DNA from: Myxococcota bacterium
GTDB lineage: Bacteria; Myxococcota_A; UBA796; UBA9615; JAKLKC01
Direction of reading: 5' to 3'
DNA: 64,000 nt
NCBI GenBank assembly: GCA_023150875.1
Contig: JAKLKC010000010.1
Span: 1 to 64,000 of the forward strand
The notes beneath the pieces are model-generated. The model searched no databases. It was not told where the DNA came from and worked only from the letters and a program-made list of their open reading frames with translations. This document shows positions 54,820 to 62,598 of the stretch, one piece after another (the first letter of the stretch is position 1; every line of letters starts with the position of its first letter). Made by a program: the position numbers and the translations under genes.

Positions 54820-55470
54820 TCAGGTCGCGTCGAGGTCCGTGTCGAAGCGCGCCGAGACCGCGGCGTAGTGGAGGCCGTCCACGCTGCGGATCACCCCCTC
54901 GACGGTGCCCTGGGTGTGGCCCGAGGCCTCGGGGGGATCGGTCCAGTCGACGGTGCCGCCGGTGTCCGCGGATCCGGTGGGGTGGATGTACGTCGTGACG
55001 TACCCCTCCCCCATGCCCGACGACGCGCCGACGACCAGGGTGACCTGGGTGCCGTCGTTCTGGTTGGACGACCACGACACCTCGCCGGACATGGTGGCCG
55101 CGGCCCCCTTCACGTGGAGCTCCACGTCGGACGCCACCCCCAGCCGCAGGTCGAGCTGCCCGTAGCCGTTGACCCAGTTCACCAGGTTCCCGTCCTTCTC
55201 CAGGAGGGTGCCGTCGTCGAACAGGACCGCGAACCCGTTGGTGCCGCCGTAGCCCGGGGGGGTCACGTCGACGGGGCCGGTGTCGTCGTCCGCGGCGTCG
55301 TCGTCCGCGGCGTCGTCGTCCGCGGCGTCGTCGTCGCCCCCCGCCGAGTCGTCGTCCCCCGCCGGATCGTCCCCCGAGAAGCCGCCGGCGCACCCCGGTG
55401 CGGAGCCGCCCAGGGCGGCGATCAGGGCGGCGACGGGGATCGAGGAGAGGAAGAGGGCGTCGGTCTTCAT
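54820..55470 (-). CDS. Asp-rich-linker lipoprotein of unknown function
   Basis: A 216-residue lipoprotein with a hydrophobic signal ending SAPGC (about Cys27). Residues about 33-66 are DDD repeats (GDDDSAGGDDDAADDDAADDDAADDDT is the run, split here for brevity). The rest is a single beta-rich domain (about 80-216) with GGTNGFAVLFDDGTLLEK and VWVNGYGQLDLR-like strands, no known family. The tandem 15-bp DNA repeat in the linker is the same as one in the lipoprotein gene at 622-1734. Confidence 0.75.
   Translation of the reverse strand: MKTDALFLSSIPVAALIAALGGSAPGCAGGFSGDDPAGDDDSAGGDDDAADDDAADDDAADDDTGPVDVTPPGYGGTNGFAVLFDDGTLLEKDGNLVNWVNGYGQLDLRLGVASDVELHVKGAAATMSGEVSWSSNQNDGTQVTLVVGASSGMGEGYVTTYIHPTGSADTGGTVDWTDPPEASGHTQGTVEGVIRSVDGLHYAAVSARFDTDLDAT
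55282..55338 (-). repeat. 15-bp tandem repeat encoding ADDDA
   Basis: Three perfect units of gtcgtcgtccgcggc at 55282, 55297 and 55312 and a partial fourth, in frame within the lipoprotein gene. The same 15-mer occurs at 1558. Confidence 0.9.
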
Positions 55471-55544: not shown

Positions 55545-57695
55545 TCAGGCCGCGGCGGGGAATCGCACGACGAAGCGGGCCCCCCGCCCCGGGCGCGTCC
55601 GGACCTCGATCTCCCCGCCGTGGGAGCGGACCACGCGCTCGCACAGGGGGAGGCCCAGGCCGGTCCCCCGCACCTTGGTGGTGAAGAACGGGATGAACAG
55701 CCGGTCCAGGTCCTCCGCCGAGATCCCCGGTCCGTCGTCGCCCACCACCATCTCCTGGGCGGACCGATCCCCCGTGATCGCTCCGGTGCGCCGCCTCATC
55801 CACGGACCCCCGCCGTCCTCGGCGTCGACGGGGCCCCCGGCGCGGCGGACGGCGATCCGGACCGTCCCTCCGGACGGCATCGCCTCCACGGCGTTCTGCA
55901 CCAGGTTGAGTGCCACCTGCTTGACCTTCTCGACGTCCACGGGGATGGGCGGCAGGTCCTGTTCCACCGCCAGGCCGATCTCGACCCCTTGGGGGAGGCC
56001 GTGGGTCTGGACGAGCTGGATCACGCCCCGCACCACGTCGGCCAGGGCCGCGGGCGTGACCTCCACCGCCAGGGGGCGGGCGTAGTCGAGGAACTGGGTG
56101 ACGACGCGGTTCAGCCGGTCGGCCTCCTCGACGATGATCCCGAGGAACTCCCGCTCGTCCTCGGGCACCGGGCCGGCCTGGAGATACTGGGCGGCTCCCT
56201 TGATGGCGCCGAGGGGGTTGCGGATCTCGTGGGCCAGGCCCGCGCTCATCTCGCCGAGGGCGGCGAGGCGCTCCCTCTCCTTCATCCGCTCGAACTGGCG
56301 GGTGTTGTCGACCAGCACGCCCGCCTGGGCCACCACCCCCCGGAGGGCTTCGACCTCGTCCCGGGAGTAGCCGCTTCCGGGAGGGGCCCGGGAGTCCCGC
56401 ACGTTGAGCCACCCCAGCACGTTGTGGCCCACCACGAAGGGCAGCGTGAGGTCGGACTGCATCCCCTCCATGGTGCGCGCCACCACCTCCCAGCGGCCCC
56501 GCTGGTCGGCGGGTCCCAGGGCGGAGAGGCGCCGGGCGGCGTCGAGGGAGCAGCCCTCCCTGCCCTCCACCAGCACCTCGGAGAACGGGAGCTGGGGGAC
56601 GGCCGCCAGGGGGGGTACGTCCAGGCGGGGCGAGGCGACCGTCGGCACATACCCCCTCTGGGCGTCGTCCCATAGATAGATGGAGGCGAGGTCGGTGCGC
56701 CGGCAGTCCCCCAGCGCCCCGAGGATCGCCCGCACCAGGGGACCGAGCTCGATCAGGCCCGTCATCCGCCGCTGGAGCCGCTCCACCGCCCGTCGGACCT
56801 CGAAGCGGTCGACGAAGAACCGGTCGCGGAGCTGCCTCTCGAAGAGGGTGCGGACGGGGTCGTAGAGGATGAGCAGAACGACCGAGGCGAGGAAGGTGTT
56901 GACCAGCGTCGCCGACGTGTGCCCACCTCCCACCGCTCCGACGCCCACCAGGAGCACCCCGTAGATCCCCGCGAGGGAGCCCGCGGCCAGCAGGAACACC
57001 CCGAGCTCCACGATGATCTCGTGGAGGTCCAGGAGGCGATAGGCGAGGATCACCTGGCCCAGGAAGTACACGTAGACCGACGCGGTCAGGCTGCCGACCG
57101 GCGGGAAGGCGAGGTCCGGCACGTCGGAGTTGAAGGAGTTGTAGACGTGCCCGAACATCTCCGCGGCGTTGGCGGCGACGGCGATCCCGCTGGACCAGGT
57201 GAGGTAGCGCAGCCTCGCCCTCTCCTCGGGCTCGGGGATCGCGCGGCTGATCCGGACCAGGAGGACCACGCCCACCACCAGCCCGAGGAAGATGACGGCC
57301 CCCGTGAGGACCGCCGCCCAGGCGAACATGACCGAGGACGGCGGGGTCAGGACACACAGCAGGGCCTGCACGGCCGCGACGAAGTAGAGTCCGGGGACCA
57401 CCCCGCCGGTCCGGGGGTTGTAGCGCTTCAGGACCCGGTGGTAGACCTGCGCCGAGGCCGGAGCGACCAGCAGCCCGGCGAACATCACCCCGTACTGCCA
57501 GATCCAGGTCCTCTCGGCGCCCAGGACGGCGTTCTCGGCCAGCCCGAGGAAGAAGAGGCACAGGAAGGCAATGGCGATCACCGAGGCGAGGTAGGCGTAC
57601 TCCTGGTGGACCCTGTCGCGCCGGTTGCGCGCCAGGACCGCGATGGCCATCGCGAGGCTGAGCAGGGCGGTCAGCAGGGGGGCCAGGGTGTGCAC
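55545..57695 (-). CDS. membrane-bound sensor histidine kinase with GAF domain
   Basis: A 716-residue kinase. About eight hydrophobic segments form the N-terminal sensor (residues about 5-290), a GAF-like domain lies around 320-465, and HisKA holds the phosphoacceptor His489 in LAHEIRNP. The ATPase domain shows the N box NLVQNAVEA, the G1 box DDGPGIS and the G2 box GTGLGLPL. An insert of about 25 residues with basic content sits before the G1 box. No response regulator is adjacent, so its output is unknown. The start GTG 57695 is about 70 nt from the divergent selA start. Confidence 0.9.
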   Translation of the reverse strand: MHTLAPLLTALLSLAMAIAVLARNRRDRVHQEYAYLASVIAIAFLCLFFLGLAENAVLGAERTWIWQYGVMFAGLLVAPASAQVYHRVLKRYNPRTGGVVPGLYFVAAVQALLCVLTPPSSVMFAWAAVLTGAVIFLGLVVGVVLLVRISRAIPEPEERARLRYLTWSSGIAVAANAAEMFGHVYNSFNSDVPDLAFPPVGSLTASVYVYFLGQVILAYRLLDLHEIIVELGVFLLAAGSLAGIYGVLLVGVGAVGGGHTSATLVNTFLASVVLLILYDPVRTLFERQLRDRFFVDRFEVRRAVERLQRRMTGLIELGPLVRAILGALGDCRRTDLASIYLWDDAQRGYVPTVASPRLDVPPLAAVPQLPFSEVLVEGREGCSLDAARRLSALGPADQRGRWEVVARTMEGMQSDLTLPFVVGHNVLGWLNVRDSRAPPGSGYSRDEVEALRGVVAQAGVLVDNTRQFERMKERERLAALGEMSAGLAHEIRNPLGAIKGAAQYLQAGPVPEDEREFLGIIVEEADRLNRVVTQFLDYARPLAVEVTPAALADVVRGVIQLVQTHGLPQGVEIGLAVEQDLPPIPVDVEKVKQVALNLVQNAVEAMPSGGTVRIAVRRAGGPVDAEDGGGPWMRRRTGAITGDRSAQEMVVGDDGPGISAEDLDRLFIPFFTTKVRGTGLGLPLCERVVRSHGGEIEVRTRPGRGARFVVRFPAAA

Positions 57696-57763
57696 GGGTG
57701 AACGTTACGCCGCCGGTGTGCCCGCGGACAACCGCCGCGGAGCCTGGCGCCGAGGAGAGACGC

Positions 57764-59218
57764 ATGACCACCGACCGCCCCGGGCAATCCCCCGCCGACA
57801 CCGGGCGCGCCGCCGCCCTCAGGGCGCTGCCCGCCGTCGGGCGGCTGGTCCAGGCGATGGCCGAGGTCGACCCCGATCTTCCCGCGGCCGTCGCCACGCG
57901 GGCGGCGCGGGAGGAGGTGGCGGCCATGAGGGAGCGCCTGCTCCGGGGCGAGGGGTTGCCCGAAGGCGTCGCCGCGGCCGTCGCGCGCTGCGTGGAGAGG
58001 GCCCGGGCCCGCCGGCGATCCGGCCTGACGCCGGTGATCAACGCCACGGGGGTGGTGGTGCACACGAACCTCGGGCGGGCGCCCCTGCACTCGGAGGCGG
58101 TCGAGGCGGTGCTGGGGGTTGCCGGGGGCTATTGCGACCTGGAGCTGGACCTCCGGACCGGGAGGAGGGGGAGGCGCGGCGCGGCCCTCCACGAACGCCT
58201 CGCCACCCTCGTGGGCGCCGAAGCCGGCCTCGCCGTGAACAACAACGCCGCGGCGGTCTGGCTCGCACTGGGGTCCCTGGCCAGGGGGCGGGAGGTGCTG
58301 GTCTCGCGGGGGGAGCTGGTGGAGATCGGCGGGTCGTTCCGCCTGCCCGAGATCTTCGCCGCCAGCGGCGCGCGCATGCGGGAGGTGGGGACCACCAACC
58401 GCACCCGGGCCGAGGACTACGCGGCCGCCCTGGGTTCGGGGGACGTCGCGCTGCTCCTGAAGGTGCACCGGGGGAACTTCCGGCAGGTGGGATACACCGC
58501 CGAGGCTGGGATCCCCGAACTGGCCCGCCTCGCTCGGGGAGCGGGGGTGTCCCTGGTCTACGACCTCGGGGGCGGCCTGCTCCGGCCCCTGCCCTCCCCT
58601 CCTCCGGGCTGGGACGAGCCGGACGTGGCGTCGGCGCTGGCGGGCGGGGCGGACCTCGTGTGCTTCTCGGGCGACAAGCTGTTCGGGGGGCCCCAGGCGG
58701 GGATCACCGTGGGGAAGGCCGCCCTGATCGAGGCGCTGGCCCGGGACCCGGTCTACCGGATGCTCCGGCTGGACAAGCTGACGGCGGCCGCCCTCCTCGC
58801 CACCGTCGCTCTCCACGAGGCCGGTCGCGGGAACGAGCTCCCGGTGAACGCCGCGGTCCTGGCCCCCCCCGGGGAGCTCCGCCGCCGCGCCTCGCGGATC
58901 GCCCGGGCCTTGAAGAGGAGGCTGGGGGTGGGGGTGGACGTCCGCCTCGACGTCGTCCCCGCGGCCGGGAGGGTCGGCGGAGGCGCCGCCCCGGAGATCG
59001 ACCTGCCGGGCCACGCCATCCGGATCGCCGGGGACGGCTTCGGGCCCCACGACCTGCTGGAACACCTGAGGGGCGGGGACCCGCCCGTGGTAGCGCGCGC
59101 CGATGACGGCGCGGTGTGGGTGGATCCGCGTGGGGTGCGCGTCGCCGAGGAGGAGTCCCTCGTCCGGGCCCTCTCCCGGGCGATCTCCGTCCTGGGAGCC
59201 AAGCACAACGTACGGTAA
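57764..59218 (+). CDS. selA: L-seryl-tRNA(Sec) selenium transferase
   Basis: PLP enzyme of 484 residues converting Ser-tRNA(Sec) to Sec-tRNA(Sec). The N-terminal region LRALPAVGRLVQAM is typical, INATGVVVHTNLGRAPL follows, and the PLP lysine is Lys305 in SGDKLFGGPQAG, the canonical SelA motif. GAGGAGAG precedes ATG 57764. This implies that the organism makes selenoproteins, yet neither selB nor a tRNA-Sec gene is found downstream, where selB often lies. I found no in-frame TGA that needs a selenocysteine explanation in this window. Confidence 0.95.
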   Translation: MTTDRPGQSPADTGRAAALRALPAVGRLVQAMAEVDPDLPAAVATRAAREEVAAMRERLLRGEGLPEGVAAAVARCVERARARRRSGLTPVINATGVVVHTNLGRAPLHSEAVEAVLGVAGGYCDLELDLRTGRRGRRGAALHERLATLVGAEAGLAVNNNAAAVWLALGSLARGREVLVSRGELVEIGGSFRLPEIFAASGARMREVGTTNRTRAEDYAAALGSGDVALLLKVHRGNFRQVGYTAEAGIPELARLARGAGVSLVYDLGGGLLRPLPSPPPGWDEPDVASALAGGADLVCFSGDKLFGGPQAGITVGKAALIEALARDPVYRMLRLDKLTAAALLATVALHEAGRGNELPVNAAVLAPPGELRRRASRIARALKRRLGVGVDVRLDVVPAAGRVGGGAAPEIDLPGHAIRIAGDGFGPHDLLEHLRGGDPPVVARADDGAVWVDPRGVRVAEEESLVRALSRAISVLGAKHNVR

Positions 59219-59482: not shown

Positions 59483-60439
59483 TTGGCCAAGATCCGCGGC
59501 GGGATCCCCATCTGGACCATCGCCTCCGGCAAGGGAGGGGTGGGCGTGTCCGTCCTGGTGGCGTCCCTCGCCGCCGAGATGGCCCGCCGGGGACTCGAGG
59601 TACGGGTCGCCGACCACGACGCCCGGCGCGGCGGCGACCTGGGCACCTACCTCGGGAAGGGCGGCCTGCGTCCCGCCGCGGCTCCCCCGCTGCCGGGGGT
59701 GAGCCTGGCGGCGGGCGTCCCCGTGGGGACCGGAGCGCTGCGGCGGGGGGCGGCGGCGCTCGTCCCGGTCCCCGGCCTCGTCCTCGTCGACCCGGGGACA
59801 CGGCACCCGGGTCGGACCGCGGCGGAGCTCGAGGCGGCGGACCGGCCCATCCTCGTGCTCACGCCCGAGCCCGCGGCGGTCGAGGGCGCGAGCCGGGTGC
59901 TGGCCGAAGTGGCGCTCCTGCGCACCGCCCGGTGGCTGGACGCCCGTCGGCGCCGGGACCGCGACGGCGATCTCCTGGGCCGCGCCCGGCTCGACGCCCT
60001 GAGGGGCGCGGACGGCTGGCTTCCCCCGCCTGGACGGCTGGCGGCGGCGCTGGGAGTCCCGGCACACGATCTGCTGCTGGAGCTGGGGCGGCGCCCCATC
60101 GACCTCGTGGTGAACCAGGTCCGGCGGGCCGACGACGTGGGTGCTGCCGGTCAGTTCGCGCAGGTCGCCATGGAGAGGTTCGGACTGGCGCCCAGGCTCC
60201 GGGGGGCCGTGGGCCACGACGAACGCATGTGGATCGCCGTCCGCAAGCGGCTGCCGGTGACGGCCTCCGGCTGGGGCACCACCTGGGACGACGACATCCG
60301 GGACCTCGCCGACCGCCTGCTGACCGGGCGGGACGTGGGCCCGGCCGGGACCGACGGAACGGTGGGAACGGCGGGATCTCCCGCGCCGGCGGTCCAGGAC
60401 GCCCGGGGCTCCGCTCCGGGCGGGAAGGAGGGGCCGTGA
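59483..60439 (+). CDS. MinD/ParA-like P-loop protein with degenerate Walker A
   Basis: A 318-residue protein of the deviant-Walker-A ATPase fold (MinD/FlhG-like). Beta1 and the P-loop read IPIWTIASGKGGVGVSVL: the signature Lys (Lys17) is kept, but the second, nucleotide-binding Lys that normally follows GVG is Val22. The Walker B strand reads LVLVDPGTRH instead of the usual DxPxG. Later strands such as LVLTPEPAAVEG and DLVVNQVRRA match the FlhG pattern. The TTG start at 59483 follows GGTGGAAG; a GTG at 59444 would add 13 residues. It probably binds nucleotide weakly or not at all. It is followed by the J-domain/HTH gene and likely shares its transcript. Confidence 0.75.
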   Translation: MAKIRGGIPIWTIASGKGGVGVSVLVASLAAEMARRGLEVRVADHDARRGGDLGTYLGKGGLRPAAAPPLPGVSLAAGVPVGTGALRRGAAALVPVPGLVLVDPGTRHPGRTAAELEAADRPILVLTPEPAAVEGASRVLAEVALLRTARWLDARRRRDRDGDLLGRARLDALRGADGWLPPPGRLAAALGVPAHDLLLELGRRPIDLVVNQVRRADDVGAAGQFAQVAMERFGLAPRLRGAVGHDERMWIAVRKRLPVTASGWGTTWDDDIRDLADRLLTGRDVGPAGTDGTVGTAGSPAPAVQDARGSAPGGKEGP

Positions 60440-60518: not shown

Positions 60519-61454
60519 ATGAAGTTCGTCACCCAGAGCTACTACGAGATCCTGGACGTCCCCCCCGACGCGGGCGACGACCAGATCCGGCGGGCCTACC
60601 GCCAGTCGAGGCGGACCTTCCAGCCCGACTCCATGGCGATCTACAGCCTCTATGCCCCCGAGGAGAGCGAGGCCATCGCCGCGAAGATCGACGAGGCGTT
60701 CCAGATCCTCACGGACCGGGAGCGGCGCCGTCGGTACGACCGCTACCTCGGCCACCGCGGCCGCGAGGCCGAGGTCCCCCGGGACCCCATCGCCTTCCAC
60801 GAGGCGGCGGGGGAGCCCCTCGCCCCGCCGGAGCGGGGGATCGCCGGGGCCTTCGCCGGCTTCGCCGCCCGGGGCGCCTCCGCCTTCACCTGGCCCGAGT
60901 CCGTCATCCCCGACGCCGGTGACTCCCGGCGAGGGGGTGCTCGCGAAGTCGTGCCCGATCCGCCCCGCTCCCACGACCTCCCCGACTCCTGGTCCCTCCC
61001 CGGGGAGCCGTCGGACGACGAGCCCCGGGGCGTCGCGCCGGGAGCCGAGGAGGAGGGCAGCGGCGACCCGCGGCGCACCACCTCGGGGGGCCTCGCGGGG
61101 TGGACCCGGGAGTCCGTGAAGAGGCTGAGGGGACTCGCCGGGGCCCCGACCGAGCCCCTGGTCCTGCGACCGATCTCTCCGGACACGCTGCGTGCCCTGG
61201 AGGCCGACCTCGGACTCGGGGGGGGATTCCTGCGACGGGTCAGGGAGTTGCGGGGGGTGGACCTGCAGGTCATCGCCGAGCGCACCAAGATCAGCCTGCT
61301 CTACCTGAAGTTCATCGAGGACGAGAACTTCTCCGACCTGCCGGCGCCCATCTACCTCCGGGGCTTCCTGCAACAGCTCGCCCGCCTCCTCGACCTCCCG
61401 GAGCAGCGCACCGTGGACGGGTTCATGGCGCGTTACCGAGATGCGAGGGGGTGA
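60519..61454 (+). CDS. J-domain protein with RodZ-type helix-turn-helix, HPD motif altered
   Basis: A 311-residue fusion. Residues 1-75 form a DnaJ J-domain (SYYEILDVPPDAGDDQIRRAYRQ then DEAFQILTDRERRRRYDRYL), but the HPD tripeptide is QPD (35-37), so the His needed to stimulate DnaK is missing. A long disordered acidic middle (about 90-200) leads to a RodZ-like HTH (FLRRVRELRGVDLQVIAERTK, then SLLYLKFIEDENFSDLPAPIYL), without the transmembrane helix of RodZ. Such HTH_25 domains bind MreB in RodZ. It follows the MinD-like gene and overlaps the rluD-like gene by 14 nt. Confidence 0.82.
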   Translation: MKFVTQSYYEILDVPPDAGDDQIRRAYRQSRRTFQPDSMAIYSLYAPEESEAIAAKIDEAFQILTDRERRRRYDRYLGHRGREAEVPRDPIAFHEAAGEPLAPPERGIAGAFAGFAARGASAFTWPESVIPDAGDSRRGGAREVVPDPPRSHDLPDSWSLPGEPSDDEPRGVAPGAEEEGSGDPRRTTSGGLAGWTRESVKRLRGLAGAPTEPLVLRPISPDTLRALEADLGLGGGFLRRVRELRGVDLQVIAERTKISLLYLKFIEDENFSDLPAPIYLRGFLQQLARLLDLPEQRTVDGFMARYRDARG

Positions 61455-62598
61455 CGACGGGTTGCCCGAGGAGCGCCACCTCACCGTGCCCCGCCGGGAC
61501 GCCGGCGCTCGCCTCGATCAGTTCCTGGCGGGGGCGCTGCCGGACATCTCCCGAGCGAGGCTCCAGAAGCTGATCGACTCGGGGCGGGTCCGGGTCGACG
61601 GCGGGGCGGTGCGCCGTTCCCACAAGCTCCGGGGGGAGGAGGAGATCTCGGTGGTGGTGCCGGATCCCGTCCCCCTCGGGCTCGTCCCCGAGGACATCCC
61701 CCTCGAGATCGTGTACCAGGACCACGACATCCTCGTGGTGAACAAGCCCCCGGGCCTGGTGGTGCATCCCACCGCCAACGACACCGAGGGCACCCTGGTC
61801 AACGCCCTCCTCTACCACGTGGACGACCTCTCGGGGATCTCCGGGGTGGAGAGGCCCGGCATCGTCCACCGGCTGGACAAGGACACCTCGGGGCTCCTGG
61901 TGGTGGCGAAGAACGACTTCGCCCACTCCGCCCTCCAGGAGCAGTTCAGGGAGCACACCCTCACCCGCCGTTACCAGGCGCTGATCTGGGGATCCCTCGT
62001 GCCGTCGGAGGGCACCATCGACCGCCCCGTCGGGCGCCACCCGGTGGATCGTCGGAAGATGTCCTCGCGGGTCGTTCAGGGCAAGGACGCCGTGACCCAC
62101 CACCGCACCCTCGAGGTGCTGGGTCCGATCTCCCACGTCGAGCTGACGCTGGAGACCGGGAGGACCCACCAGATCAGGGTCCATCTGTCCGACGCGGGGC
62201 ATCCCGTGGTGGGCGATCCCGTCTACGGCGGCCGCCTCTCGAAGCGCCCGGTGGCCGATCCCCGCCTCGAGGCGCTCCTGAAGCCCATCCACCGGCAGAT
62301 GCTCCACGCCTTCCACCTGGGCATCGACCACCCCCGCGCCGGCGAGTACATGGTGTGGGAGGCGGACCCTCCCGAAGACATGAGGGACCTTCTCCTGGCC
62401 CTCCGCAGCCTCTACCGGGGGGGCGCCGAGTCCCGCGGCTTGCGCCCGGAGTCGATCCTCGACCCCGAAGGACGTCCCCCCTCCTCCCCCAGCTATCGCC
62501 CCGGTCCCCGCCCCAGCGGCCCCCTCCGGCCGCCCTCCCGCGGGGAGGAGGACCGCGAGCTCCCCGACGTCGCCAGCGACGACCTGGACGAGGAATGA
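61441..62598 (+). CDS. RluD-family 23S rRNA pseudouridine synthase
   Basis: A 385-residue enzyme with an S4 domain (RLDQFLAGALPDISRARLQKLI, about 24-46) and a catalytic domain in which HRLDKDTSG provides the catalytic Asp146. GRTHQIRVHLS and DPVYGG further on are typical of RluC/RluD. Its Pro/Gly-rich C-terminal tail (about 335-385) is disordered. ATG 61441 overlaps the preceding stop by 14 nt, so translation is linked to the J-domain gene. Confidence 0.9.
   Translation: MRGGDDGLPEERHLTVPRRDAGARLDQFLAGALPDISRARLQKLIDSGRVRVDGGAVRRSHKLRGEEEISVVVPDPVPLGLVPEDIPLEIVYQDHDILVVNKPPGLVVHPTANDTEGTLVNALLYHVDDLSGISGVERPGIVHRLDKDTSGLLVVAKNDFAHSALQEQFREHTLTRRYQALIWGSLVPSEGTIDRPVGRHPVDRRKMSSRVVQGKDAVTHHRTLEVLGPISHVELTLETGRTHQIRVHLSDAGHPVVGDPVYGGRLSKRPVADPRLEALLKPIHRQMLHAFHLGIDHPRAGEYMVWEADPPEDMRDLLLALRSLYRGGAESRGLRPESILDPEGRPPSSPSYRPGPRPSGPLRPPSRGEEDRELPDVASDDLDEE

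Follow-up and report, generated by a model that had tools for sequence, protein, structure and literature searches.

A MinD/FlhG-like protein encoded in the window (the whole stretch of 64,000 nucleotides of a Myxococcota bacterium contig analysed here) lacks the P-loop lysine, and, judged from its sequence and those of its relatives, there is about an even chance that it is a pseudo-ATPase or very slow ATPase that binds or regulates the protein encoded beside it, in which a J-like domain precedes an HTH_25 domain (J-HTH_25). The genes and sites concerned are the following:

55545..57695, minus strand: sensor histidine kinase, conserved divergent neighbour (named by inspection, compared by tblastn)
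57698..59218, plus strand: SelA, conserved upstream neighbour
59483..60439, plus strand: MinD/FlhG-like protein of 318 amino acids, without the P-loop Lys
59531..59551, plus strand: Walker A, KGGVGVS, with the signature Lys (K17) kept, the P-loop Lys replaced by V22 and the Mg Ser (S23) kept
59612..59620, plus strand: switch I, D44-x-D46, with both Asp kept and the next switch-I Asn replaced by Asp
59789..59791, plus strand: Walker B Asp (D103), kept; switch II after it reads PGTRH versus LAAG/TPAG
60113..60115, plus strand: adenine-site Asn N211 (in VNQVR), kept
60519..61454, plus strand: partner gene, J-like domain (amino acids 7-74) and RodZ-type HTH_25 (61230-61406)
61441..62598, plus strand: RluD-type pseudouridine synthase, conserved downstream neighbour (named by inspection, compared by tblastn)

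The reading frame of the MinD-like gene is open from a TTG start at 59483 to the stop at 60439 and is preceded by a putative ribosome-binding stretch, GGTGGAAGTGAG-TTG; its codon-position GC (0.83/0.59/0.91) is of the coding type and resembles that of the adjoining genes. The codons at 59531-59551 (AAG GGA GGG GTG GGC GTG TCC) read K G G V G V S within a fuller Walker A of SGKGGVGVS, with V22 encoded by GTG at 59546-59548, which confirms at the codon level the replacement of the P-loop Lys by Val that an earlier note on this DNA had reported. The motif KGGxGK[ST] of the MinD/FlhG deviant Walker A is therefore not what is found here, while the other hallmarks of that group (the signature Lys K17, D44 and D46 of switch I, D103 and N211) are all present. 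The earlier note had also described Walker B as altered; DPGTRH does differ from DLAAG/DTPAG, but the difference lies in switch II and the Walker B Asp itself is kept. No more than three of the sites examined are changed in the window protein: the P-loop Lys, the Asn of switch I and the Gly of switch II.

The assignment to the MinD/FlhG group rests on structure more than on family profiles. Pfam and NCBIfam gave weak ParA/MinD matches, nearly all confined to the N-terminal part of the protein, and its scores fall short of the cut-offs of both the MinD equivalog TIGR01968 (30.1 bits versus 212.9) and NF047398, the KGGVGR-motif variant AAA ATPase (22.6 bits versus 90). An AlphaFold2 model made with six sequences is of moderate quality only (pLDDT 64.8, pTM 0.70). 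With it, Foldseek returned FleN/FlhG first and then MinD (E around 1e-6, probability 1.00, with modest TM-scores of about 0.45 on a model of pLDDT about 65), the top structures being FleN 8p53 and 7ejw and FlhG 4rz3, and the MinD/FlhG-like identity proposed earlier agrees with these best structural matches. With FlhG/FleN, the MinD-like ATPase that controls flagellar number, the window protein shares a probable MinD-type core, the DxD of switch I and the Walker B Asp; it differs in having no P-loop Lys and in the position of its gene beside those for SelA, J-HTH_25 and RluD. No second strong copy was found in the window's own genome, where the other matches are P-loop family proteins with E-values of 0.005 or worse.

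The end branch of the window protein, known from a single genome, is 1.83 changes per site long, versus a median end branch of 0.24. Because of this long branch and of weak support, its placement in the tree is unreliable, and orthology therefore rests on gene order. The order histidine kinase, SelA, MinD-like, J-HTH_25, RluD is found in the window and in a genome of family f4 (G008), which belongs to another family of the same class; family f2 (six genomes of the same order) has all five genes as well, SelA and the kinase forming an inverted pair. Outside the class, a genome of family f31 (G142) has SelA, MinD-like, J-HTH_25 and RluD in the same order, with no match to the histidine kinase within the stretch taken. 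On the far side of the kinase gene, at about 54820-55393 on the minus strand, lies a possible lipoprotein with an Asp/Ala-rich low-complexity stretch. Despite the adjoining SelA gene there is no case for a selenoprotein: in-frame TGA codons marked in some homolog matches, inspected at eight loci, look like ordinary stops, with no evident conserved sequence beyond them.

All the f2 and f4 orthologs are without the P-loop Lys. Their Walker A motifs read GSGGVGRS in G001 and G003, ATGGAGRS in G002, GCGGLGRS in G004 (from the partial locus L018), GSGGVGRT in G006 and at locus L066 (whose match position agrees with G005:C1072), and GKGGVGRS in G008 of f4. The absence of Lys from relatives that the earlier note had proposed to check thus extends to every same-order and f4 ortholog; the replacement there is Arg, unlike the Val of the window. 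An intact KGGVGK in close relatives, which that note had taken as evidence against its reading, was not found; intact homologs occur only in other classes, as in G142, where the motif is GGGKGGIGKS (L045).

Elsewhere in the class, the MinD-like gene itself is missing between SelA and J-HTH_25, in the sampled genomes of families f3 (G009, G011), f7 (G028), f8 (G021) and f9 (G055). J-HTH_25 is kept at these loci (L244 and L246 in f3, L252 in f7, L247 in f8, L248 in f9) and is followed by RluD. In f5 (G036) the contig stops short of SelA and shows J-HTH_25 and RluD only, which fits absence of the gene. The class-level search gave no genome outside f1, f2 and f4 with a match above paralog scores. 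Scanning the genome contigs with the window protein alone gave no relative, and a first mixed alignment contained no stretch conserved enough to serve as a scan query; a second contig scan with four f2 sequences gave five loci, all of the f2 type.

Across the phylum, matches at E <= 1e-22 occur in 224 of 379 sampled genomes. A first census of the P-loop position took in 163 loci, among which certain genes were represented more than once; it counted 122 K, 27 R, 7 T, 3 A, 2 H and 1 V, with one unread. After de-duplication and removal of short pieces, 152 members remained: 117 with K, one unread and 34 without K (21 R, 7 T, 3 A, 2 H, 1 V), or about one quarter of a family sample whose members were selected on profile score and do not cover the phylum evenly. 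On trees built without the P-loop columns, at least 14 changes between K and non-K are needed for 152 rows and at least 13 for 95 rows, counts in which losses and regains are not distinguished; K may have been regained in two f16 rows that carry it within an R group. The MinD/Mrp-type paralogs of the class have K at all 23 loci where the P-loop could be read by motif search, two further loci giving no motif match.

Other catalytic residues tend to disappear together with the Lys. The switch-I Asp is lost in 14 of 34 members without K versus 11 of 117 with it, the switch-I Asn in 24 of 34 versus 12 of 117, and the switch-II Gly in 14 of 34 versus 8 of 117, these counts being descriptive and not a test, since the rows are related by descent. 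All 34 members without K keep the first Asp of the DxD motif (D38), as well as the Mg Ser/Thr and the Walker B Asp, and 32 of them keep the adenine-site Asn. As far as sequence can tell, this pattern fits a loss of hydrolysis with the nucleotide-site residues retained. In family f15, the converse substitution was also seen, in members that have the P-loop Lys and in which the Walker B Asp is replaced by Asn (L090, L109, L139) or His (L108, L166).

Copies without the Lys outside the window's order are under purifying selection. Nei-Gojobori omega values, which are rough because several pairs approach saturation of dS and the codons are strongly biased towards GC, are about 0.04 (L082/L093) and about 0.11 (L095/L096) for closer Lys-less pairs elsewhere in the phylum, and about 0.17-0.43 for the Lys-less MinD-like copies of f2, which have many invariant residues. 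In the same f2 genomes, the histidine kinase gives 0.13-0.53 and RluD 0.14-0.55; the J-HTH_25 stretch compared is held more tightly than the MinD-like copy (0.07-0.16).

The partner gene has Pfam matches to DnaJ and to HTH_25, the latter at 71 bits. In RodZ, an MreB-binding protein, HTH_25 forms the cytoplasmic domain. The partner has HTH_25 in common with RodZ, and it lacks a transmembrane segment: after HTH_25, no transmembrane helix was found, the best 19-residue hydrophobicity mean in the protein being 0.89. With J-domain co-chaperones it shares the DnaJ match and not the His of the HPD motif, which reads QPD here (60621-60629) and NPD, RPD or no such motif in relatives. In the window genome (G000) and in f2 genomes G001, G002, G003 and G006, the J-HTH_25 gene gives the only HTH_25 match; most other genomes searched have two, and the second protein, where read (f15, f43, f16, f19), is short, with a hydrophobic and probably transmembrane segment. 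MreB has one strong match in the window's genome, and a soluble RodZ-like role for the J-HTH_25 protein is conceivable. In other families of the phylum, MinD-like, J and HTH_25 domains are joined in one protein (L082, L100, L145), and in L192 the MinD-like domain is fused to HTH_25 with no DnaJ match called. The idea of the earlier note that the protein might be a membrane scaffold finds no support here; fusion and gene order suggest a soluble J-like/HTH_25 partner.

These results suggest a module that spans the phylum and combines a MinD-like domain with a J-like domain devoid of the HPD His and with a RodZ-type HTH_25; in the window, two adjacent genes encode it. The MinD-like protein of the window's order and of family f4 has lost the P-loop Lys and, most likely, the normal ATP hydrolysis cycle; it would persist as a binding partner, presumably through physical contact, or regulatory subunit of J-HTH_25, possibly with nucleotide still bound as a ligand that is static or turned over slowly, and a connection with MreB might run through HTH_25. 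The recurrent loss of the Lys, together with the dropping of the gene elsewhere in the class while the partner is kept, makes the ATPase engine look dispensable.

Loss of the Lys need not, however, mean loss of activity. E. rectale TadZ, from which both conserved Lys are gone, reportedly keeps its ATPase activity according to the account in PMC10482377 (citing Xu 2012), and a mycobacterial MinD homolog reportedly stays active after K-to-A mutation (PMC10482377). The expectation of the earlier note that hydrolysis is abolished is thus favoured by the residue-loss pattern and weakened by TadZ. These precedents, TadZ and MSMEG_3743, also underlie a rather unlikely alternative, namely that the window protein is still an ATPase in which another basic residue replaces the P-loop Lys, as reported for TadZ. 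In its favour, few of the examined sites are changed in the window protein, and Arg, the commonest replacement in the family and the one found in f2 and f4, may still contact phosphate. Against this, V, T, A and H replacements occur too, the switch-I and switch-II residues decay along with the Lys, and just five lysines are present in the window protein (K3, K17, K59, K255 and K315), with no compensating residue found. McdA can be set beside it: this ParA family member has its signature Walker A Lys replaced by Ser and an unusually high reported ATPase activity (PMC6328274), so that McdA lacks the signature Lys, the window protein the P-loop Lys and the f2 members both. NF047398 is named for the Arg at the P-loop position, a residue also found there in f2 and f4, where the window protein has Val. 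TadZ/CpaE proteins function in Tad pilus systems; as described, they resemble the window protein in being MinD/ParA-family members with conserved Lys loss, and differ from it in having no J/HTH_25 partner.

It is quite unlikely that the MinD-like gene is a relic now decaying towards loss, a loss that other families of the class would already have undergone. The genomes of f3 (two), f7, f8 and f9 that have dropped it, with f5 fitting, would agree with this, and the very long branch of the window protein, a single genome in which selection may be relaxed, tells for decay and against the partner reading, to which the moderate structure model is a further objection. The intact frame with its coding signature, the constraint on the f2 copy, about like that on the neighbouring genes, and the purifying selection on Lys-less copies elsewhere argue the other way. 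An error of sequencing or assembly at the Val codon is very improbable: the assembly is a draft of 180 contigs, but to turn Lys AAG into Val GTG takes two substitutions within a single codon, Arg stands at this position in the closest orthologs, and the Lys is missing from all order and f4 orthologs.

If the partner reading is extended to the phylum, it is possible, though only tentatively proposed, that catalysis is lost time and again from the MinD-like domain of the module while the nucleotide-site residues stay. What was a positioning-type ATPase would thereby come to serve a soluble RodZ-like adaptor as a static subunit for nucleotide sensing or scaffolding, and in part of one class the domain would in the end have disappeared altogether. 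No description of a MinD-J-HTH_25 module was found in the literature searched. ParA/MinD proteins are understood through their ATP cycle. The family, with its dozen or so changes of the P-loop Lys, offers a natural experiment on what a ParA/MinD-type protein may do without normal hydrolysis, in a conserved operon or fusion, and points to an apparently unstudied MinD-J-HTH_25 module across the phylum.
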